Assembly (NCBI RefSeq): GCF_964204645.1
Contig: NC_134027.1
Span: 20,634,485-20,698,484, forward strand
Direction: 5' to 3'
DNA from: Tubulanus polymorphus
Lineage: Eukaryota > Nemertea > Palaeonemertea > Tubulaniformes > Tubulanidae
DNA: 64,000 bases
In this document: one piece after another, positions 29 through 62,332 of the stretch
How positions within the stretch are numbered: position 1 is the first letter of the stretch
How the letters are laid out: the number at the start of each line of letters is the position of its first letter
Notes under the pieces: model-generated
The model's database searches: none
What the model saw: the letters and a program-made list of their open reading frames with translations, nothing else
What the model was told of the DNA's origin: nothing
Program-made: the position numbers and the translations under genes

Positions 29-6293
<6,265 letters not shown>

Positions 6294-13947: not shown

Positions 13948-16900
13948 ATGGCGTCGATCCAAGTGGTAAGTGGGTGTCTCTACGGCGACATTAAGCCGGC
14001 TTTTTAAACGCATCCGTGCGTGGATATCGGCGAAATTTCGCTTGTAGATGCGACTAAATGTCGGGTGATAGAACGTGAAATTTGGAGCCGATATTCGGCT
14101 TAATAGGGAATTTTTCATTGATTACATGATGAAGTGACAATTCGATCGACACGTCACATACAATCGATTTAGCGTATGAATAGAGAATAGTACGCGCTCG
14201 CTGTCATGTTATTACACGTAATTTCCATTCTTTCATACGTACTAGGCCTAGGCCTAGCATAGATATTTGTAGTCTTTAAACATGTTTGGTTGTGGGGTAA
14301 TTAGGCCTAGTCCATGGTCTCTCCTCAGCAAAGTTTTGGGACACAACAAGAAATCTCAGAAAGGTCTATAAATTTTAGGGTGCCATTGGCATTGTTATTC
14401 CAGTGAACTGAAGCACCTACTTCTACCAGAATGTTCACCAAGAACCTTTAGTGTCTGGGTAAACTAGAATGGTAGAAGAGCAACGTAGATCACTGTGGAG
14501 ACAACCACAGGACTGGGTGAACCAGAGAATGGGACGGTGTCTGATCTCTAAGTTTAGTACATGAAAAAGTGTTTGCTTTGCTTTGAGGTAACCCTTGAAG
14601 ATATTTTTCAACAACTAAAGTGATAGACCTTAAGGCCTTGATGTAGGCCTATCTTCATTAAAATGGACATCACAAATTTGAGGAAGTCCCCTCGAGATCC
14701 ACCCGCAAAAAAATTGGTCTAGCCTATATGAGACCTATTCCTGGCTCAACTGCATTAAATACAAAAATCAGCCGACAAGTCTTTGAATTGGATAGAGCGT
14801 TAAGAAATAAGATTGACATCGAATGTGTAATTATAGCCTAGGCTTATTTGATTGTACAATTTTGGTATCAGGTCCTCATTATCAGGACCCTATGAGGGAA
14901 GAATAGGTTCAAATCATTCCTGTGAGGGATTCTCATGACGAGGTCAGATTCTAAACCCCTGCCGGGGATAATGTGGCAGCACCTCATGAAGCCCCTTTGA
15001 GGGAGGAATGTGACAGCCACCTGAAGCCACAAAGTTTAAATCTAAGTGAGCTAGTAGGCTACCAGTATGGTATTCTATAGCCGTGATCACAAGCATCTTT
15101 GGCATGTGCTAAAAACTGTTCACATGGGTGCCAAATGGGCAAACGAATATGCCTTATTTGGCTCAACCAAAAACGTTGGACCAGGCCTGAGCCAAATTTT
15201 AGCATGGGACAGATGATTGCAACTTGTTCTGAAAATGATTCTCTTCACTTCGTTTGAGCATTGCTTACTACCAGTATCGCATGAGTGGTTTGCATGTAAA
15301 GCGCTCTCTAAAATAAGAAACGGGCCAAATTTGGCTCGAGCCTGATCCGTGCCGTATTGTCTCCGTGTGATCGCAGCTTAGGCCTATGTGAGGCTTTCAT
15401 AACTGGATAGATAGAGTCACAAACTGCCTTCTTTGTTCTTCGTCAAATGTTTGTGATACTACGTTTTGTTTCATTGAATTTCCTAGATGCAGTCGCCGAA
15501 GCGCCATCAAGTAAAAACCGAACGCATGCAGGAATATTTGAGGGCTCAAGCCGAACAGTCGAGTCCGACAAAACGTTTACAGTGTCCCGAAGAAGGTTGC
15601 AATAAAGTGTTGACGAGTTCGCCCGGTTTGAGGTATCACCTGAAATCTCATTATCAGGATCGACCGTACATGTGTCTACGCTGTAATAAACGGTTCAAAA
15701 GGTAATTTCAAACGGTCGTTTTAGAGTAGGCCTAGCGCCTTGTATGTATGTGTTTCGTTTTGTAAACTGGGTACCGAGGTTAGCGTTAGGGTTACATAAT
15801 AGACAGGTGATGATTTTGCCGACGCTGCATTATGATTGTTAATGCTATTTTGCTGATACTCGTTCCGATTGGTTTATTTCACACTGCGCATTAGAAAATT
15901 CTAGGAGAGGGCAGAGAACAGAGTTTGTGAAAATAGATCAGAAAGAGTCGCGTTCCAATCCTGGGCCAGAATATCGCTCGTGCAGCATCTTTCCCACAGG
16001 ACCACCAAACTCGTTGGATTCCACTGTTTTTAAACTGTTTTAACTAGGCCTACATAGTCTATACTACGAGCAATTATCTCAACTTGAGATAATTGCTCGT
16101 AGGTCTAAAGCACTATGATCCTATAACTCTCATTCTATCCCTAGCCCTAAAACAGATTCTAATCCCTCCCTTAAACCTAATAGAATAACTTGAATGTTAT
16201 TCATTCTAGCTATATCTCAATCAGATGTCAGTAAAATTTGATAGTATTTACAAACAAATGCCACGTCAGCAAAATATCCACTTCAAACATAAAATTCAGG
16301 GTGGATTTAAACTTCAGGGTGGATTAAGTGAAAGTTTGATTAACCTAGAAGAATCAGAAGCAGGCATTTTTCAATGCGTGAAATTTGCCTCGGCCAATAT
16401 ACAATGAGCAATAGCCTACGTGTCGCACATTTTCATATGTGGCAAACCTGCACAAGTGCCTGTGCACTTGGCGGGGTTTTCATGGCAAATGACGGGGTTT
16501 TCTGTCAGTGCTGAGTCTCACGATGCCATCAAGTTCGAATCCCTGCTGAGTGAGCATATTTGCTAACAGTTTCTAAAAGTAGTTTGTATTTTTTCATAAC
16601 AGCGCTAATGGTTTGAAATACCACACCGAACGCACGAAATGCCAGATATTCCACCATGACGATAGGTCATCCTCACCGATTTTCATCGACGAATCAACGG
16701 ACAACAGTTTATCGCCGTGGAAACCGTCTATATCTCCGACGTCGAGCGCTATACGTTGTTTGAACCCGTCGCTCGAGTGTTTCGAAGGTCCCGATAGTTT
16801 GCCAGGTAAGAATGAAAAAGATAAGCACCTTAGCGGTTATTATGTGAACACAGTCAATTGCAGTTTTGTAGCTCATAACGTGTTCTAATGATTGTGGGGA

Positions 16901-19900
16901 GTTTGAAGATCGTTGGTTTGAATAGCACGAATAACATGGCGTTTCCATACATTTTCGTACCTACATTTATTTTGTAACCACAATCAACTAGGTACAAAGT
17001 TCTCGGCCTATAGTTTATCAATTAGTAATTTTAGTTGCTTAATCCTTGGTGGTAAACTTTTTAGCTCCGCTGTGACCGAAGGTCAGCGGAGCTGATGGGT
17101 TAGGGTGATTTTATGCGTCGTCTGTCCTACCGTCCGCCCGTCAACTTTTGTTTCAATTTGCTACTAGTGCTACAGTTCTTTTCTAATCTTGACCAAACTT
17201 GGTATGAAGCTAATATGGGCCAAGGACTAAAAAGTTATAGAGCCGTCTTCCCAATTTGATCTCTAGGGGGCGCTGGACGGGTGGCACTTGTAAAATCTTT
17301 AAATCGCTACTTGTCCTACAATTATTGTCCGATGTTGACGAAACATACTATGTAGATACTAAAAAGTTATAGAGCCGTTTTCCCAATGTGATCTCTAGCG
17401 GGTGCTGTACAGGTGGCGTCTGGAAAATCTTTTAATCACTACTCATCCTACAATTATTGTTCGATGTTGATGAAACTTGGTGTGAAGCTAATATCGGCCA
17501 AGGACTAAAAAGTAAAGAGCCGTCTTCCCAATTTGATCTCTAGGGGGCGCTGGACGGGTGGCACTTGTAAAATCTTTAAATCGCTACTTGTCCTACAATT
17601 ATTGTCCGATGTTGACGAAACATACTATGTAGATACTAAAAAGTTATAGAGCCGTTTTCCCAATTTGACCTTTAGGGGGCGCTGTACAGGCTTGTAAAAT
17701 CTTTAAATCGCTACTTGTCGCTAAATGCTACAATTATTATCTAATCTTGACAAAATTTGGTATGTCAATATTTTTGGCCATGGGCTAAATGTTGCTGAGC
17801 CATTTTCCCAATCTGATATCTAGTGGGCGTTGTACAGGTCACGCTTGTAAAATCTTTCAATTGCTACTTGTCCTACAATCATTATCTGATATTGACAAAG
17901 CTTGGTATGTAGATACTATGGGCGAAGGGCTAAAAAGTTATACAGCCATTTTCAGGATTTGAACTCTTGAGAGTGCTGTGTAACATAAACAGCAGAGCTC
18001 TATCAGCCGATAGGCTACTTGTCTTATAATTTGTCCATCCTTATGATTGTGGGTTGTGAAAATATCCGATGCAAAATTAAATGACATAACAGGTTACTGA
18101 CTCAGAAGCTAATATAAAAGAAGCCTACTCTAAATTGCTAAACCACTTCAGAGGCAACTTATTGGTTCTCGGGCTTCCGTGAGACCCTGTCTGTCTGTCT
18201 GAACGTGCACCTTTCAGCTACTAAGCTTTATTAATAGTGTGTTGATTTTGACAAACCTTGGGTAAAATGTTAGTATGGGGGTCTAATTGTGCCACCTAGC
18301 AGCAGAACTAGGCACAAAACACTGTTTTTCGGCGATATGACCTTGAATATGACCTCATAACTCAGGAAAAGGGTCGAAATTGAAAAAGTTGTCTTGACAG
18401 AATTTAACTAATGGCCTTAGATACAACATTGATCCAAAATGCAATGGGAACTAATGCATGGTAATTTTGGAGTTTGAGTCTGAGCCTGAGTTGTTGCCTA
18501 TGGCTTGTTTTCCCATTAATTTCGAATGGGATTTTCAATAATTTTGTAGAAGAAGATTACAATTGTCCAGTAATACGTATGCAACACCAGTTACCCGGTC
18601 TTTTCCGTCCTCGACTATGCATTCAACAACAGAAAACGGGCTTCCAAGTATCTGCACGAGCCATCGATTCGATACCATCGTCGTCATCAGTCGCCGTAAA
18701 AGAACTGACAACAAAACCGAAAGAGATTGTCGCCATATCTCCAGATTCTACGAATCCATCATCGTCATTATCATCTTCACCGCCATTAGGGAATCATTCT
18801 TCTTCTCCGTTGGATGCGTTGACGGAATTGGCTATCATCGCTACCGGTCCGCAGAGTCCTCTGATACGCAATAATCCGACTCGCAATCTCAAGTAAGTGT
18901 CCGTTTGGTGTGTCCCTTCTACCAGTTCCGACGTGCATTTGGTCTTATGTCGCAAGATTTTTCTCTGTCAATCAACTTTGATCAGAATTTTTAGACTCCT
19001 GAATCCATACACAGGACCCATCAAATTCACTTTTCTACTCAGTAATTGGTAAAGTTTTCACTTATAATTCATTTAAGAGAAATGTTCATTCAATTTTCAC
19101 TGAAATGTAGAAGAAATTCTAATCAAAAGACCAAGAACCTACTCGCGAACCTGGCAGATCCTTGCTGCTTGCCGTAATTGGAATTCTTGACTACTGCAGG
19201 AGCGCTAGAGGTTCCCTATCGCTGGCATAGCTTGTGCGACAGGCGATGATCCATTGGTTTCCTTAATAGATAGGGAAAGTGCTTTGCTCAAAGCACTTCC
19301 GCGTTGTTAGACTAGTATCGTGACACAGCCATGTTTTCAAATTGATTTTGAATGGGGAGAATGCTGTGAGAGATGACCTTATGTCATTTGATAAACTTTT
19401 TGATAATCTTGGGCCATGTATACAAACAACAAATGACTGCGCAACTGGGTTCAGATGTCCCGTACCTCTAAGACTCCTCGCTGTATTTGCGATTGTTGTA
19501 TTTGTATTTGATTTCGTTAACAGAGACGAAAGCGATGACTACGTCACCTCATCATCGCCGTGCCCGACCTCGCCTAAAAACGGAGGCTGGTCTCACCGCT
19601 GGCCGACCGCCGTCTGGCAGTGTTTCATGAAAGGAAGTCGCGTCCGATTCACGAGCGGTTCAAATATGGATTGGCAGTTAGCCGAAGACGTCGGTTTCAA
19701 GGAATCGATGTCGAACAGCGCTTCGCAAAATCCAGCACAACTTACGAGGTAAGAGAAATTCAAATGATTTAGCAGCAATCTACAGAGTACAGTAAACCAT
19801 TGTCAGTCAGATGTTTTGGACTGGGAAATAATTTACACCTGGTAGGGAAATTGGGAAAAACTTGGACTGGGAGATAATCTACAGATCCTTACTAAAGTCT

Positions 19901-29977: not shown

Positions 29978-30322
29978 TTATGAAAATTACGTTGTTTATT
30001 TTATGAGAAATAGATCCTATATGAGAACTTAGTGATACGCAAAGTAAGGATGACCCAGTACCACAGTCTGCAGAATCAAGGATTCATATACATGTATTAG
30101 ATAGAATTAATTTATTATGAAAATTTTATTATTTATTGTGCGCAAAATAGAGAAAGTAAGTAATGTTTAAAGTAAGAAAGAAAGTAAGTTTTAACTCTTG
30201 AGTGAATTCTTATCTCAGAACTGTGGAACCTGGTCCAGATAAACTGAAATTTGATTACGTATTGAATAAAATGATGCAATATCATGTAACGCAGTTGCTT
30301 AAGACAAGATCTTGTCATTTTT

Positions 30323-31587
30323 AGCCCACTTGGGACTTTAGACCCAGCGGGCTATTGCGTTCACTTTTCGTCCGTCCGTTCGTCCGTCCGTAGACGGAAT
30401 CCAGTTATTTTGGGAAGTTTTGAAGACGCTTCAAGGTAATGTCTTGATATTTGGTTTTTACATGTATCTACCCTAGACACATCTTCAGCCCAAAAAGATT
30501 CCTGAGCCCTGTCAGATTCAAGATGGCCGGCTGGCAGCCATTGTTGTTCGCCAAAATCAGCACTTTTTACACATTTTTGAAGTTTTTGAGGGAAATTTTG
30601 AAGACGCTTTGATCAATTACCTTGGTCTTTCGGATATATGTGAATCCCCCCAGGGCCCATCAACATAACAAAAATTGGGTCGGTCGGACTCAAGATGGCC
30701 GTCCTATGACCTTTTTAGTGCCCAAAAATGTTAATTTTGGCCCGAATTCTGAGTCCTGTAGCTTCCTACTGGTTTGCCATTTCTCATTGCAATTTGTGAT
30801 GGGTATTCTATGGAAAGGGATGTTTTATACCTGAGACAGGTATTTTTCATCAGCCAATTATGACGCAATTGGCGGCCATCTTTGTGTCACCAGTACTCAT
30901 TCGTAAGTGGGAAAAAGTTTTTCCACATTATATTGATGAGAAAGCGTATTTTGCTACCACAATCAATAAGAAAGTTGTAGCTAATAACGTGTTCTATGAT
31001 TGTGGTGAGTTTCAAGGTAATTGGAATTCGTATATGGCCACCAGGGGGCGTTGAATAATACAATATCTTAGCATTTCTTTATTATATTCGTACCTATGCA
31101 TATTTTGTAACCACAATCAATTGGAAAGTTGTAGCTCATGACATCACCTATGATTTATGCGAGTTTTAAGGACATTAGTTTTTCTATATGGTCACCAGGG
31201 GCGTTGAATAGTAGAATAACTTAGTATTTCCTTATTATATTGGTACCTAGGCATATTTTGTTACCATGATCAATTGCAAAGTTGTAGTTCATGACATGTT
31301 CTATGATTGTGGTGAGTTTCGAGGTCATTGGGTTTTGAATATGGTCACCAGGGGGCGTTGAATAGTAGAATGACTTAGTATTTCCATATTAAATTGGTAA
31401 CAAGGCATATTTTGTTATCACAATCAATTACAAAATCGTAGCTGCTGACATGTTCTATGATTGTGGTGAGTTTCAAGGTCGTTGGCTTTTGTAAATGGTC
31501 ACCAGGGGGCGTTGAATATTGAAATTGTTAGATTGTTGAGCATTTGAAACCACTTCCCAAGTGGGCATGGTGTCCCTGGACCCCTAG
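30323..31587 (+). mobile_element. Hairpin-headed tandem-repeat element, family A (copy 2)
   Basis: It begins with the hairpin AGCCCACTTGGGACTTTAGACCCAGCGGGCT (about 30323-30353), then a CGTCCGTCC lead, about 550 bp of unique body also present in copy 1 (around 3480-3880), four monomers, and the end ACCCCTAGTTA. The block TGG(C/T)CACCAGGGG(G)CG recurs at 31035, 31189, 31342 and 31496, a spacing of 154, 153 and 154 bp. ATTTT flanks both sides and may be a target duplication. There is no transposase. Confidence 0.78.
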
Positions 31588-32384
31588 TTAAATATTTTAA
31601 TTCTTGAAATTTGTTTGTTTTTTGGTTTTTAATTGTAGTTTAAGTATTTGAATGTATCGATTGTGAACATTTTCTTCATCCTGCGTGGTTCATGTTTGAG
31701 AACATTATTTAGATTAAATCATGTGTTAGCTCTTTATGGAACTTTATGGATATTTATAACTATTATTATTATTAATATTATTATCAATGAATTAATATAT
31801 AATTACCTATTTATTAGATGTAAATTGATCGATCATTGTTTTAACTGATGATCTGGGAATCCCTGTTTACAGTTTTCGGATATCTAAAATATCGATCACA
31901 TTCATCATAGTGAATATCTATCATTACGATTGTTTGATTTAATCAACCAATCAAACTGATTGATTTATTTAATTCATCTATGATATTTGACCACCATTGA
32001 TCTAATTGATTGATTGATATGATTAACCAATCAAACTCATTGATCTAATTGGGTACCGGCACTCACTAGATGGCGCAACAAAACACTAGATTATTCATAG
32101 AGCAAATCAGTAAATTTTCAAAGATATTTGAACACGATTTTCAAGCCTCCAAGTCCTAAAGTCCGAATAGGTTTAGGATTCGCTTTCTCATTTGGTCAAA
32201 TAGGTTGAAGTGAAAATTTATTTACTATTCAGATAACTAATCAGATTCGAATTTGATTGAAATGTAGAAGAAATTTGAGCGTAATAACCAAGTAACCACT
32301 AGCGAATCCGGTGGAATCCTTGCTTGCCGGCACCCCATTGATCAATCGATTAACTCATTGCTCCTATTGTTTCATTTCATTGAT
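31588..32384. other. Intergenic, low-complexity ATTGATT-rich DNA
   Basis: AT-rich, with runs of ATT and repeated TTGATTGATT/AATCAATCAA words that lead into the minisatellite downstream. I see no gene. Confidence 0.6.
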
Positions 32385-48113: not shown

Positions 48114-49073
48114 TCAATGGTTATATCTGACTGAATGTTTACAGCGGATTTTCATACAGAAATATTCACGAATTTCTCGTCCCAGCAAAAGATATATGTA
48201 GAAATTTATCACATAGTTACAAACATGGAAGTGTGTGACAATGTCCAACAGAAATGCTCTCTGTTCCGGTGAGATTGGTAACATTGCAGTAATAGTGGCT
48301 GGAAATGTAAATATGGCAAATGCGAGTGAAACTGTAACAAGCATTATTGTTGTACGTTTCGATTTTGTAGTTTTCTGAGCAGACGAAAATATTTTTGAAC
48401 CTCTGAATAACTGAATGATTATAACTGAATTTGATGTAATGATTAAAACTAGTGGTGATAGGTTAGAGTGGATAACAATTATGGAGAAAAGTCTTATTTG
48501 GTCGAATACGTATAAATAACATCCAAACAGAGGATCAGGAAAGTGTATCGACAAAATAGGTGTGATATATAGAACCAGTAAATTCACTGCAATAATTATC
48601 GATATCGTGAATCTAGCGAATCTCGGTGTACATATCAAACGAGATGTGAACGGGAAGAGCACAACCGCCGCACGTTCTAGAGATATTGCTACTATCAACC
48701 ACGAACTATTGATAGCTGCAAGTGTCATTACGAATCCATAGATTTGACAACTGACCATTGAACTCATGATGAATATAGGTCCGCTTTTAACGTGCACGAG
48801 AACAAACTGTAAAACAGGCATCAGGGTATAATTGATACAGTACATAAAATCATTGAGAGATAAAATGATAAGATAGTTAGCGTAAGATAAACTGCGGAAT
48901 CTGCGACTTATCATTATCAGGAAAGTAGCTGAATTTCCAAAAGCTCCAAACATGAACAAGATAGGCAGAATGACCAGCATCACAGTACGGTAGATTCCAG
49001 ACATATTCACCACAGACATTAGAACGGTGTAAGCGTTATATGGTCGACCAATTCGCATCTCAGTTGAATTCAT
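48114..49073 (-). CDS. Rhodopsin-type GPCR, duplicated copy 1
   Basis: Intact single-exon frame of 319 codons from ATG 49073. It starts MNSTE with two N-glycosylation sites (NST, NMS) in the short N-tail. TM1 has GNSATFLIM, TM2 has LSLNDF, TM3 ends LERAAVVLFP (E-R-A in place of DRY), extracellular Cys residues are in place for the TM3-ECL2 disulphide, and TM7 ends NFYIYLLLG in place of NPxxY, with a basic helix 8. It resembles lineage-expanded FMRFamide-receptor-like orphan receptors; the ligand is unknown. The reading frame differs from copy 2 by one residue (K versus T) near the C-terminus. The upstream region contains an overlapping uORF. Confidence 0.88.
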   Translation of the reverse strand: MNSTEMRIGRPYNAYTVLMSVVNMSGIYRTVMLVILPILFMFGAFGNSATFLIMISRRFRSLSYANYLIILSLNDFMYCINYTLMPVLQFVLVHVKSGPIFIMSSMVSCQIYGFVMTLAAINSSWLIVAISLERAAVVLFPFTSRLICTPRFARFTISIIIAVNLLVLYITPILSIHFPDPLFGCYLYVFDQIRLFSIIVIHSNLSPLVLIITSNSVIIIQLFRGSKIFSSAQKTTKSKRTTIMLVTVSLAFAIFTFPATITAMLPISPEQRAFLLDIVTHFHVCNYVINFYIYLLLGREIREYFCMKIRCKHSVRYNH

Positions 49074-53124: not shown

Positions 53125-54084
53125 TCAATGGTTATATCTGACTGAATGTGTACAGCGGATTTTCATACAGAAATATTCACGAATTTCTCGTCCCAGCAAA
53201 AGATATATGTAGAAATTTATCACATAGTTACAAACATGGAAGTGTGTGACAATGTCCAACAGAAATGCTCTCTGTTCCGGTGAGATTGGTAACATTGCAG
53301 TAATAGTGGCTGGAAATGTAAATATGGCAAATGCGAGTGAAACTGTAACAAGCATTATTGTTGTACGTTTCGATTTTGTAGTTTTCTGAGCAGACGAAAA
53401 TATTTTTGAACCTCTGAATAACTGAATGATTATAACTGAATTTGATGTAATGATTAAAACTAGTGGTGATAGGTTAGAGTGGATAACAATTATGGAGAAA
53501 AGTCTTATTTGGTCGAATACGTATAAATAACATCCAAACAGAGGATCAGGAAAGTGTATCGACAAAATAGGTGTGATATATAGAACCAGTAAATTCACTG
53601 CAATAATTATCGATATCGTGAATCTAGCGAATCTCGGTGTACATATCAAACGAGATGTGAACGGGAAGAGCACAACCGCCGCACGTTCTAGAGATATTGC
53701 TACTATCAACCACGAACTATTGATAGCTGCAAGTGTCATTACGAATCCATAGATTTGACAACTGACCATTGAACTCATGATGAATATAGGTCCGCTTTTA
53801 ACGTGCACGAGAACAAACTGTAAAACAGGCATCAGGGTATAATTGATACAGTACATAAAATCATTGAGAGATAAAATGATAAGATAGTTAGCGTAAGATA
53901 AACTGCGGAATCTGCGACTTATCATTATCAGGAAAGTAGCTGAATTTCCAAAAGCTCCAAACATGAACAAGATAGGCAGAATGACCAGCATCACAGTACG
54001 GTAGATTCCAGACATATTCACCACAGACATTAGAACGGTGTAAGCGTTATATGGTCGACCAATTCGCATCTCAGTTGAATTCAT
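53125..54084 (-). CDS. Rhodopsin-type GPCR, duplicated copy 2
   Basis: Intact 319-codon frame from ATG 54084, identical in protein sequence to copy 1 except T for K in the last dozen residues (IRCTHSVRYNH). All receptor landmarks of copy 1 are kept. Near-perfect conservation may reflect a very recent duplication, gene conversion, or two haplotypes assembled in tandem. Confidence 0.88.
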   Translation of the reverse strand: MNSTEMRIGRPYNAYTVLMSVVNMSGIYRTVMLVILPILFMFGAFGNSATFLIMISRRFRSLSYANYLIILSLNDFMYCINYTLMPVLQFVLVHVKSGPIFIMSSMVSCQIYGFVMTLAAINSSWLIVAISLERAAVVLFPFTSRLICTPRFARFTISIIIAVNLLVLYITPILSIHFPDPLFGCYLYVFDQIRLFSIIVIHSNLSPLVLIITSNSVIIIQLFRGSKIFSSAQKTTKSKRTTIMLVTVSLAFAIFTFPATITAMLPISPEQRAFLLDIVTHFHVCNYVINFYIYLLLGREIREYFCMKIRCTHSVRYNH

Positions 54085-57149: not shown

Positions 57150-57174
57150 CTGTAGTCGCATACAACAATCAAAT

Positions 57175-57520
57175 AGAGGTTCAGGGACACCAGGTCCACG
57201 TGGTGGTGAAAAGCTTAACAATCTGACAACAACAATTTTCAACTAATCACAATCGTAGAGCTTATATGAGCTACAATTGTGGTTACAAATGCATAGACCT
57301 AGCTACCAATACATACGGAAATACCATATAATTCCAATAATCAGCGCCTCCTAAGGAACATATGCCTTGAAACTCACTTTAATCATATGGCAATGTCATG
57401 AGCTACATTTCTGCAATATCGATCGTGGTTACAGAATTTGCCTAAGTAGCTATACATCATGATATATATGAAATAGCATCTTATTCCGCTATTCAATGTC
57501 CCGCTGTGAACAACATGTAC
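57175..57520 (-). mobile_element. Decayed fragment of hairpin-headed family A (copy 3)
   Basis: GGTTCAGGGACACCAGGTCCACG and CTTAACAATCTG, then CACAATC...GAGCTACA...TTGTGGTTACAAA and CCTTGAAACTCACTTTAATCAT, match the family A tail and monomers. Two monomer starts are about 152 bp apart (57342, 57494), but the CCCCCTGGTGACC block is mutated in both. It lies 25 bp upstream of the first recognised BHMT exon. Confidence 0.65.
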
Positions 57521-58630
57521 ACTTGGTTAGAATGTGCATATGTACCGATATCAATGGAAATGGGAGAACAACAGACTGGGTTAGCCTGAATTCCATCAAA
57601 AGATGAGTTCTGCGACAATGCTGATATTAGGAAAATAATAATTTGTACAGAAGCTGGAGTTCGTGGTTAGCGTTACTATTGCCTGGCATCCTGCGTTGAT
57701 GCATACGTCAGATATAAACAATGAATAGACGATTTGTAAATAAACGCATCTGGATGTGACCTATGTGCCCACGTAGGAATACCTGAATATAGCACGGCCA
57801 CGAGCTCCGACGAGTGCAAAAGTTATTTTTAGGTTGTTGTGACGTGTGTAGGTACGTTATCATTCCATATGTGGTGGGAGGAGTGTCGTGACAGATACAT
57901 ACGTCACAATCCGTGAATTCTGAGCCATGTGTGGTAAGGGCCTGCACACGTTACTAAAGAGTAAAATAATATAAAATGGGACATCGGGAAACATAGAAAA
58001 ACGAGACTGGAATGGGAACAGCCAGAGCGAAATATACCTCTGAGAATAAAAGCATACGTATTATACCAACTGGAGAAGATTCTTCTAACCTTCATTTTCT
58101 ATCACTGACAAGATCATATATCAAGACTTGTTAGCATCAGTTGATATTTTTCCTAAAAAAGCCTTTTGCATATCTTTGCACGAGGCTTGATAAGACTTAA
58201 GACGGCCGATCGATTGATCGAAAAATGTGGCTGATGGGAGAGAGCCCTTGCCAATGTATACCCATCAGAAATTTCAACAGAATGTACAAGCAGTTCATCT
58301 ACCTGTAGCTACAGCGCTATCGCGTACTGACACTGGCGTGCTTTACTGCTATTCCTTTGTGTGAACCTGGCGGTCTTGCCCCAGCCTCTAACGGTCCAGT
58401 GGACCCACTTATCAAATGGTACATGAGCACTGATGAGACTACGATGGCCACTAATGAGGTTAAAATTGTCTAACTGAGAAATGTGTGTCGATTGGTTATC
58501 TTCAGATAATCTTTCACAATATCTTCAGAGATATCTTCACAATATAGACATACATTAGTACAGATGAAGTATTGGAAGATGATGATTCAGAAGATGATGA
58601 TTTATTCGTAATGAAACAATTTCATAAAAA
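57521..58630. other. Intergenic or BHMT intron, no exon seen
   Basis: Searched for the missing BHMT N-terminal exons (GDGG, FTFYAS-like block) on the minus strand without success. No other gene is recognised. Confidence 0.45.
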
Positions 58631-60643: not shown

Positions 60644-62332
60644 ATGGCTACAGCAGCAACTGGCCAACAAGATGTTAGGCCAAAAGAAACAAGAAATAGG
60701 TCGCTGACCGAAAAAGGTGTCGAATACCAGAAGGAGAATAAACTGAAAGATAGAAAAAGTCTCCTGAAGAAGCTGAACAACTTGTCTAGTACTCTTCTGT
60801 CAGTTATTGAGCACAGTGACTATGATGTTGTCCAGAATTCATACAAAGACTGGATCAAGACGTACGAGAATTTCTTGCAAGTTTCAGATGAGTACTGTCT
60901 TCTACTCAGTTCTAAAGAAAAAGAGAATTTGTCGGTCGAAAGTAACGAGATGAATACATACTTCAACCAAGTCAAAATGGCGGCTGAAAATACTTTGTCG
61001 GTACTCGCAAGATCGAAACGGTCTGCTGAATCCAGGAAGTCTGTTAGATCAAAAGCTAGTTCAGTACGCTCTGATTTGAGTAAGGGTAGCTCCATAATAT
61101 CTGCTCGTTTGAAAGAAGAACAGAGAAAAGCAGAGCTTAATGTCTTGCTGAATAGTATGAAGAAAAAACAGACTCTTGAGCTTGAGAAATTGCGGCTGAA
61201 ACAACAAGAAGAGTTTTTAGATTTGAATACGCAGCTGGAAGTTAGTGAAGCGAAGAGTAACGTGATTGAAACACTTTTAGATAGGGAATCGAATAAGTCA
61301 ATGATTGATGATAAATCGTTAATTCCTGAACCATTTCCTACATTTCTGAAAAATGAAATAGCTGAAAATGATGGTTCTTACAGACCTTTGAATCCACGTG
61401 CTACTACGTTCATGCCATCTGATGTCGGAAGCGTTGTTAATGCGGAACCAAGAGGTCTAGATTCGATTGTGAAGCATATCAAAAAGCCGTTTGTTGAAAT
61501 AAAAAAATTTGACGGAAATCCTCTTGAATACCGGCGTTTCATCCGTCAGTTCAATTCTAGAATTGCTGAGAATACGGACGACGACGATGAACGGCTAAAC
61601 TTTCTCGAACAATTCACAATTGGTGAGGCAAATAGAATTGTAACAGGTCTTAGCTATATTGGTTCAACACGAGGATATCAAGCTGTTCTTACAGAGTTTG
61701 AAGAACGATACGGTGACTCGGCGATCATTGCAAATGCTTTGTTAAAGAAAGCTATAAACTGGCCTATGATTAAGTCAGACAACAGTAAAGGCTTGGACGA
61801 ATTCTCGATTTTCTTGTTAGAAGTAGAGAATGCTGTGAAAGATATAGATGCATTGAAACTTCTTGAGTACCCTGACAATCTGAGGAAGTTGGTGGGTAAA
61901 TTACCATGGTCGCTTCAAGATAGATGGAGAACTATAGTACAGACAACGCGCTCTGCTGGTAATACTATAAATCTGAATACCTTAGTGAGTTTTGTACGGA
62001 AGGAGTCAAAAAAGGTGAACGACCCGATTTTTGGTAAAGATATGATGGCTGCTGCGTTAGATCAGAAGAAAGACAAAAAGTCTCTGCGAATATCACAGGG
62101 TAGCCGAAATACTGTTGCTGCACAGACGGGGAGCATTTCTCATACGAATCAACAAAACTCATTTAATCTTGCATTGAAGAAACCATGTATATACTGCGCT
62201 GGCGATCATGTATTAAATGATTGTAAAGACCTGTCTAATGTGGTCTTTGAAGAAAAAATATCTTTTCTTAAAGAAAAGGCCTCTGTTGGGGTTGTCTCCG
62301 ATCTGGACATCAGAAGAGAAATTGTAGATTGA
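60644..62332 (+). CDS. BEL/Pao Gag (DUF1759-type) with zinc knuckle
   Basis: Open frame of 562 codons from ATG 60644. The N-terminal half is highly charged and coiled coil; residues about 285-440 form the DUF1759 Gag core (FDGNPLEYRRFIRQF, RLNFLEQFTIGEA, LEYPDNLRKLVGKLPW). A zinc knuckle CIYCAGDHVLNDC is near the end (about 62186-62224). In BEL/Pao elements gag and pol are normally one frame; here gag ends at 62332 because of a one-base frame change in an A run at 62274-62277. Gag packages element RNA into particles. Confidence 0.85.
   Translation: MATAATGQQDVRPKETRNRSLTEKGVEYQKENKLKDRKSLLKKLNNLSSTLLSVIEHSDYDVVQNSYKDWIKTYENFLQVSDEYCLLLSSKEKENLSVESNEMNTYFNQVKMAAENTLSVLARSKRSAESRKSVRSKASSVRSDLSKGSSIISARLKEEQRKAELNVLLNSMKKKQTLELEKLRLKQQEEFLDLNTQLEVSEAKSNVIETLLDRESNKSMIDDKSLIPEPFPTFLKNEIAENDGSYRPLNPRATTFMPSDVGSVVNAEPRGLDSIVKHIKKPFVEIKKFDGNPLEYRRFIRQFNSRIAENTDDDDERLNFLEQFTIGEANRIVTGLSYIGSTRGYQAVLTEFEERYGDSAIIANALLKKAINWPMIKSDNSKGLDEFSIFLLEVENAVKDIDALKLLEYPDNLRKLVGKLPWSLQDRWRTIVQTTRSAGNTINLNTLVSFVRKESKKVNDPIFGKDMMAAALDQKKDKKSLRISQGSRNTVAAQTGSISHTNQQNSFNLALKKPCIYCAGDHVLNDCKDLSNVVFEEKISFLKEKASVGVVSDLDIRREIVD

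Follow-up and report, generated by a model that had tools for sequence, protein, structure and literature searches.

The window analysed here is a 64-kb stretch (C3:20634485-20698484) of the 267.8-Mb genome of Tubulanus polymorphus (77 contigs), and it holds two copies, in opposite orientation and 92% identical over 1106 bp, of a hairpin-headed element that we call family A (Table 1). In copy 2 the 5' subterminal inverted repeat and a complementary stretch downstream form a hairpin head at 30323-30353, a fold that is supported when computed as DNA (30318-30360, z = -2.28, with 1 of 200 shuffles equally good); the 3' end (31545-31590, 46 bases) folds no better than its shuffles (79 of 200 equally good). 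The body of the element contains three AAGATGGCCG words (30520-30529, 30692-30701 and 30873-30882, two forward and one reversed) that resemble the YY1 core. Elsewhere in the window lie two rhodopsin-type GPCR frames that are almost identical and some 5 kb from each other (48114-49073 and 53125-54084, the domain scan being that of the first), probably a recent duplication, and an open frame with DUF1759 (60644-62332), a domain that occurs in Pao/BEL-like retrotransposons. A scan of the window against Rfam gave no match.

Table 1. Positions in the window of the two family A copies, their structural parts and their CTCF-like sites
Feature	Position	Strand	Basis
Entire copy 2 of HINE family A, 5' T run through CTAGT	30318..31588	+	aligned copies and flanks
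5' subterminal inverted repeat of copy 2, GCCCACTTGGGA	30324..30335	+	letters
GTCC-type microsatellite in head of copy 2, TTCGTCCGTCCG	30367..30391	+	repeat scan
Tandem array of copy 2, period 154, 3.7 copies	30947..31518	+	repeat scan
CTCF-like site of monomer 1, TGGCCACCAGGGGGCGTTG, 26.2 bits	31035..31053	+	matrix score
Site of monomer 2, lacking one G of the G run, TGGTCACCAGGGGCG, -0.2 bits	31189..31203	+	matrix score
CTCF-like site of monomer 3, 21.0 bits	31342..31360	+	matrix score
CTCF-like site of monomer 4, 21.0 bits	31496..31514	+	matrix score
3' subterminal inverted repeat of copy 2, TCCCAAGTGGGC	31555..31566	+	letters
3' palindrome GTCCCTGGAC (31572-31581) and terminus CCCCTAGT of copy 2	31572..31588	+	letters, aligned copies
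HINE family A copy 1	2789..3944	-	termini read from letters, tail pattern
Damaged site of copy 1, CG lost, 11.5 bits	2857..2875	-	matrix score
CTCF-like site of copy 1, 21.1 bits	3011..3029	-	matrix score
CTCF-like site of copy 1, 20.8 bits	3165..3183	-	matrix score
Weakened site of copy 1, 17.2 bits	3319..3337	-	matrix score

Element class and copy number

Judged from its structure, family A is a HINE, i.e. a gene-free, non-autonomous Helentron (a rolling-circle transposon), and we read the class in this way because the ends, the repeats and the palindrome agree with what passages of two earlier descriptions give for such elements (PMC7492417 and PMC4067079). The traits seen were subterminal inverted repeats at both ends (12 bp each, within the 11-15 bp of the class), the head hairpin, a GTCC-type microsatellite, a central tandem array (in 79 of the 92 copies sampled), a 3' palindrome (present in both window copies, and, searched for with a pattern that itself included it, as a palindromic tail in 22 of 32 copies) and insertion into T-rich target sequence. 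For the last of these, 72 copies were examined, 48 of which had a tail fitting the search pattern: TT precedes the head in all 48 and T follows CTAGT in 45, and direct repeats of 2-8 bases, as expected of a target site duplication, were not above shuffles in the same 48 copies. The Helitron Rep domain (Helitron_like_N) has 58 matches in the genome, and some of these lie in open frames that exceed 1,000 aa (the longest of 2009 aa). Family A would presumably be copied by the rolling-circle Rep/helicase of a partner.

The head pattern was found, with at most 3 mismatches, at 1674 places in the genome (785 + 889) and its reversed control at none. The claim of the initial annotation that the carrier is mobile is supported. 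The sample of 92 copies consists of 90 taken from 100 heads among those listed (20 of these covered over their array stretch) and of the two window copies; the sampled heads are all perfect matches, so that the sample leans to young copies. The 79 copies with an array mostly have runs of four monomers (51 copies), followed by three (12), two (10), five (4) and one (2). Older material was seen in the window as well, namely a relic monomer of family A in which the motif is gone (16838-16987) and, at 57174-57560, an old relative of the HINE array with about 67% identity, motifs degraded or absent and a recognisable tail.

CTCF-like sites and their conservation

Each monomer of copy 2 had been described as carrying a motif that matches the CTCF core, at 31035, 31189, 31342 and 31496, spaced 153-154 bp apart in a single orientation, and copy 1 as carrying four more in inverse orientation near 2862, 3014, 3168 and 3322. 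Reading of the letters confirmed the positions, the spacing and the orientation in both copies, and the statement on each monomer holds for five strong sites out of eight (20.8-26.2 bits); one further site is weakened (that near 3322) and two are broken (that near 2862, and that at 31189, which fails to score because the missing G breaks the 19-bp CTCF frame). Scores refer to the CTCF matrix JASPAR MA0139.1, and letter counts to its 19-letter consensus. The consensus of monomer 1 agrees with 17 of the 19 letters and reaches 26.2 of 31.3 bits; those of monomers 2-4 reach 21.0 of 31.3 bits and are three letters off, two of them costly.

The window contains 12 places that match CACCAGGGGGCG with at most 2 mismatches where 0.85 were expected, a number reached by none of 100 shuffles; 7 of the 12 fall in copies 1 and 2, the site at 31189 not being among them. 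Similarly, 12 window sites score at least 16.6 bits, whereas 300 column-shuffled matrices give 0.18 on average and never more than 3, and the reversed matrix gives none; three repeat families hold 11 of these 12. In 268 Mb one would expect by chance about 0.3 sites scoring like monomer 1 and about 28 scoring like monomers 2-4; the exact motif TGGYCACCAGGGGGCG occurs 3377 times (1632 + 1745) and its reversed pattern not once. A chance match was rejected, shuffles, shuffled matrices, reversed controls and chance expectation all lying far below what was observed, and the match of the family A motif to the CTCF position matrix, as a match of letters, is real and well beyond chance.

Two other readings of the array were not supported. 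That the row is directional is an automatic outcome of its being a tandem repeat. The spacing had been likened to one nucleosome; CTCF covers some 40-60 bp and a nucleosome 147 bp, and we set the likeness aside because only about 100 bp of the 154 bp would remain beside a bound CTCF, which looks too short to hold a nucleosome.

The motif had also been called the best-kept part of the two copies, and it was compared with the rest of the monomer in copies from the whole genome. In a set of 36 copies, departures from the class consensus amount to 2.05% in the 16 columns of the motif as compared to 4.35% elsewhere, with singletons at 1.31% and 1.34%, respectively. In the 32 complete copies (the same set minus 4 with an unmatched tail) shared variants amount to 12/2033 in the motif and 854/37811 in the rest, and singletons to 25/2033 and 481/37811; after matching for base and CpG context, the expected numbers are 56.8 for the 12 shared and 28.6 for the 25 private variants. 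Among the 51 four-monomer copies (a set that leaves aside the 28 array copies with more or fewer monomers, hits on the reverse strand and columns of fewer than 15 letters) context matching gives 34 shared motif variants where 139 were expected, a depletion of about fourfold, and 31 private ones where 39.6 were expected, the latter comparison carrying no p-value. The motif is intact in 143 of 192 monomers (74%), whereas the median for 102 windows is 54%; it ranks sixth in this respect and all five windows above it overlap the motif. The 16-base window with the fewest shared variants in the 51 copies is ATGGTCACCAGGGGGC. By rate of shared variants the motif window ranks 13th of 138, and the top ten include two windows elsewhere, at TGACATCATCTATGAT.

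The tests made at the level of columns were not significant (p 0.13-0.21). Columns with shared variants numbered 5/64 in the motif and 182/1200 in the rest (p = 0.15) and, in the 51 copies, 11/64 and 127/510 (p = 0.21), and when the mask was shifted, 15 of the 154 phases, the motif's own included, had equally few shared variants. The consensus sequences of the monomers differ from each other at 27 of 118 columns, 1 of 16 in the motif (p = 0.07), and a run of 26 bases with at most one difference between them has p = 0.11. Moreover, a control word from elsewhere in the monomer (TCTATGATTGTGGYGA, e.g. at 31300-31315) occurs 3150 times exactly in the genome, nearly as often as the motif. The motif belongs among the best-kept parts of the monomer, and the strong form of the claim is weakened by the control word and the column tests.

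Taken together, the depletion of shared variants gives weak to moderate evidence for constraint on the lineages that amplified, and there is no clear evidence for upkeep of the motif after insertion, private mutations being not significantly depleted in tests that cover perfect-head copies alone, which are mostly young. Copies seem to decay neutrally once inserted, and any selection seems to have acted on the mobile lineages. A gain at the level of the element is the likeliest explanation for a row of sites that is kept in the source lineages and not in single copies. The main rival is that a CTCF site came into a HINE by capture or by chance and that slippage made the array, with no gain to element or host even if CTCF may bind. 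The column tests, the frequency of the control word and the private mutations all suit such a neutral passenger, and in related HINEs the ends can bear unrelated arrays, according to the part of PMC7492417 that deals with them. The fourfold deficit of shared variants and the position of the lowest 16-base window argue against it, as does the presence of CTCF-like cores in a second HINE-like family and in a repeat with long inverted copies (see below), and we regard it as a serious possibility of clearly lower probability than an element-level gain.

That many copies were co-opted as boundaries or loop anchors and are kept by selection on the host would agree with the single orientation within each array and with the cohesin-contact motif of the host's CTCF (see below). 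However, the private mutations of the motif lie near background in both copy sets, and the lack of clear constraint after insertion speaks against general insulator use of the copies. The proposal that the host maintains them as insulators was therefore not supported, and we consider it quite improbable, all the more as heads and consensus cores are distributed differently along C1.

CTCF and other CTCF-like repeats in the genome

An orthologue of CTCF is encoded in the same genome, from C3:3430379-3431720 onwards, with zinc fingers that, by their sequence, should read the core. Its open frames comprise the N-terminal region with ZF1-4, then ZF5-9 and then ZF10-11. In a search of solved structures ZF1-4 matched human CTCF (7w1m_H) with 165.7 bits in a single stretch; by summed score ZNF568 comes out slightly higher than CTCF (233.8 and 231.5 bits), because the repeated fingers of a many-fingered protein add up. 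For ZF5-9, human CTCF ranks first (7w1m_H, 144 bits in a single stretch). ZF3, ZF4 and ZF5 have helix stretches almost the same as in the human protein, and in ZF6 and ZF7 these stretches are similar to the human ones. A YDF is aligned to the human YDF (DMDMSIYDFKEE and DVDVSVYDFEEE); the aligned stretch is weak (19.9 bits) and includes part of ZF1. The cohesin-contact motif, YxF at 226-228, is described, in the section of PMC10003631 concerned, as kept even where CTCF takes no part in forming loops, e.g. in Drosophila, and for that reason the YDF of the orthologue does not prove looping. Another zinc-finger protein with a AGGGGGCG-type preference could read the motif instead, and C2H2 stretches are indeed many (205 genome matches to the zinc fingers of CTCF); CTCF is nevertheless the simplest reader, given how much of the CTCF matrix is matched and how similar the helices are in ZF3-7, and a different one seems very unlikely.

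Putative CTCF sites of the host itself are of the CCACTAGATGGCGC type. The consensus core CCASYAGRKGGCRS occurs 1240 times in the genome (657 + 583, any in repeats included) as compared to 16 times when reversed, and the 74 matches on C1 use 39 of the 64 possible words, which fits a degenerate factor site better than one repeat. The family A word does not fit CCASYAGRKGGCRS and lies outside the 1240. With 3377 exact cores, family A alone outnumbers the matches to the classical consensus. On C1, 80 of the 82 perfect heads among those listed sit in the inner half (8-24 Mb), as compared to 24 of the 74 consensus cores (KS p 3e-5), in a comparison made on C1 only and with 10 of the 74 cores coming from two clusters described below (L104 and L105); perfect-headed copies on C1 lie mostly where consensus cores are about half as frequent.

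Family A is not the only repeat with such cores. A second hairpin-headed, HINE-like element (family B, about 17057-17980 of the window) has monomers with TGATCTCTAGGGGGCGCTG or close words that score 19.8 bits at 17257 and 17534 and 18.7 bits at 17666. Its word TCTAGGGGGCGCTG occurs 58 times in the genome (reversed, 0), often spaced by 127-147 bp, and a longer word of the family was found 148 times with at most 3 mismatches as compared to 2 times when reversed; arrays related to family B were seen at three further loci (L106-L108). Families A and B appear unrelated outside the core, as judged by reading and by blastn within the window. Copy 1 of family A is flanked by inverted repeats of 1,022 bp (802-1823 and 3980-5001, 98.9% identical), in which TGGCCTACAGGGGGCGTTA lies at 915 (+) and 4870 (-), the two facing each other. 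The same word, with at most 3 mismatches, has 34 places in the genome, several of them close plus/minus pairs, as would be given by an element that has long inverted repeats at its termini. Finally, an array of about 21 tandem units of 61 bp with CTCF-like cores was found at C1:31733250-31734950 (L105, 83-1333), and a cluster of GTCCACTAGGGGGCACT-type CTCF-like cores at C1:31231700-31232400 (L104), where no tandem repeat was found between the sites. Four repeat types with a CTCF-like core in otherwise different sequence might mean that CTCF has been targeted repeatedly by DNA parasites, an idea that we put forward tentatively, as one less likely to be right than wrong.

These repeats also bear on the view that the motif serves as a signal for transposition (such as an iteron-like Rep site or another replication element of Helentrons) and that its likeness to CTCF is accidental. 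The tandem sites do adjoin the 3' terminus, and shared variants are fewer while private ones are not clearly so. Against this, the match of monomer 1 spans 17 of 19 letters, the arrays of a different HINE-like family have, as read, only the CTCF-like core in common with those of family A, and three copies have no monomer at all (L055, L069 and L099), although these three have one common 3' flank and are hence no proof of mobility without an array. We judge a signal of this kind improbable.

A proposed use of CTCF by the element, and known systems

The explanation that we consider probable is that family A is a HINE that carries about four sites recognisable by CTCF, gains from them the openness needed for transposition, and leaves its copies unmaintained after insertion. 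We infer occupancy, open chromatin, a benefit for transposition and an effect on loops as parts of one scheme. Each of the roughly four 154-bp monomers would carry a sequence that the CTCF of the host should recognise, and CTCF would most likely bind intact copies, if only in some cells. A row of four bound CTCF molecules near the 3' end, spaced by about 150 bp, would exclude nucleosomes over some 600 bp, and the open array would leave source copies accessible to a further round of transposition, with the element itself as the likeliest beneficiary. An inserted copy would not be maintained and would decay like the rest of the element. As a by-product, thousands of CTCF-like sites would be scattered over the genome, in one orientation per copy. 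The forward motif points to the 3' side of the element, and a vertebrate CTCF motif in that orientation would stop cohesin arriving from that side. The relic monomer and the old relative in the window, with the motif lost or degraded, speak against this explanation.

If CTCF is indeed a repeated target of DNA parasites, the tentative idea given above, the elements would use CTCF to stay open and mobile, and transposons would be a main force acting on the places at which this genome can fold. One review of 3D genomes in spiralians regards the formation of TADs in invertebrates, by either mechanism, as lacking direct evidence (PMC10658181). Family A offers thousands of near-identical, datable, oriented and tandem CTCF-like sites in a host whose CTCF keeps the cohesin-contact motif. 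Should they be bound, they would constitute a natural experiment in which copies that are intact, broken at one site or devoid of the array show how occupancy, loss of nucleosomes and blocking of loops differ between them, and they would test whether CTCF stops cohesin in the lineage of T. polymorphus.

In the one literature collection searched, no paper that combines Helentron and CTCF was found and, among the titles listed for Helitron and CTCF, none names such an element; tandem CTCF-like cores in a rolling-circle element appear to be new as far as that literature goes; the principle has precedents. The gypsy retrotransposon carries a row of Su(Hw) sites with insulator function shown, another protein and another class of element than in family A. 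A close structural parallel is Cg_HINE of the Pacific oyster, which in the part of its description that gives the structure shares with family A the 5' subterminal inverted repeat with its complementary inverted repeat, the GTCC-type microsatellite, the tandem array, the 3' subterminal inverted repeat, the palindrome and the fixed orientation of the array relative to the ends; the term CTCF is absent from the main text of that paper (PMC7492417). Similarly, the passages on HINE, DINE-1 and Helentron elements in PMC4067079 give subterminal inverted repeats, a 3' stem-loop, TT-rich insertion without duplication and central repeats, as in family A, and do not mention CTCF sites; for family A, classed by structure, a partner with the same ends is presumed.

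Other systems resemble family A in what they spread. Mammalian SINE B2 and other CTCF-carrying SINEs are likewise mobile and have spread thousands of CTCF motifs, as described in the relevant part of PMC3368268; these are retrotransposons with binding seen by ChIP-seq, whereas family A is a rolling-circle DNA element with about four tandem predicted sites. In Drosophila miranda the ISX Helitron has spread a binding site for a chromatin complex that acts chromosome-wide, and differs, by the account in part of PMC6598467, in that its motif is one of dosage compensation, bound by another protein complex and used by the host. A motif in the terminal inverted repeats of placozoan Mutator elements found at loop anchors is, like that of family A, a DNA transposon motif in an invertebrate with a small genome; according to the portion of PMC12221973 that treats it, the host is a non-bilaterian without CTCF and its loops were shown by Micro-C.
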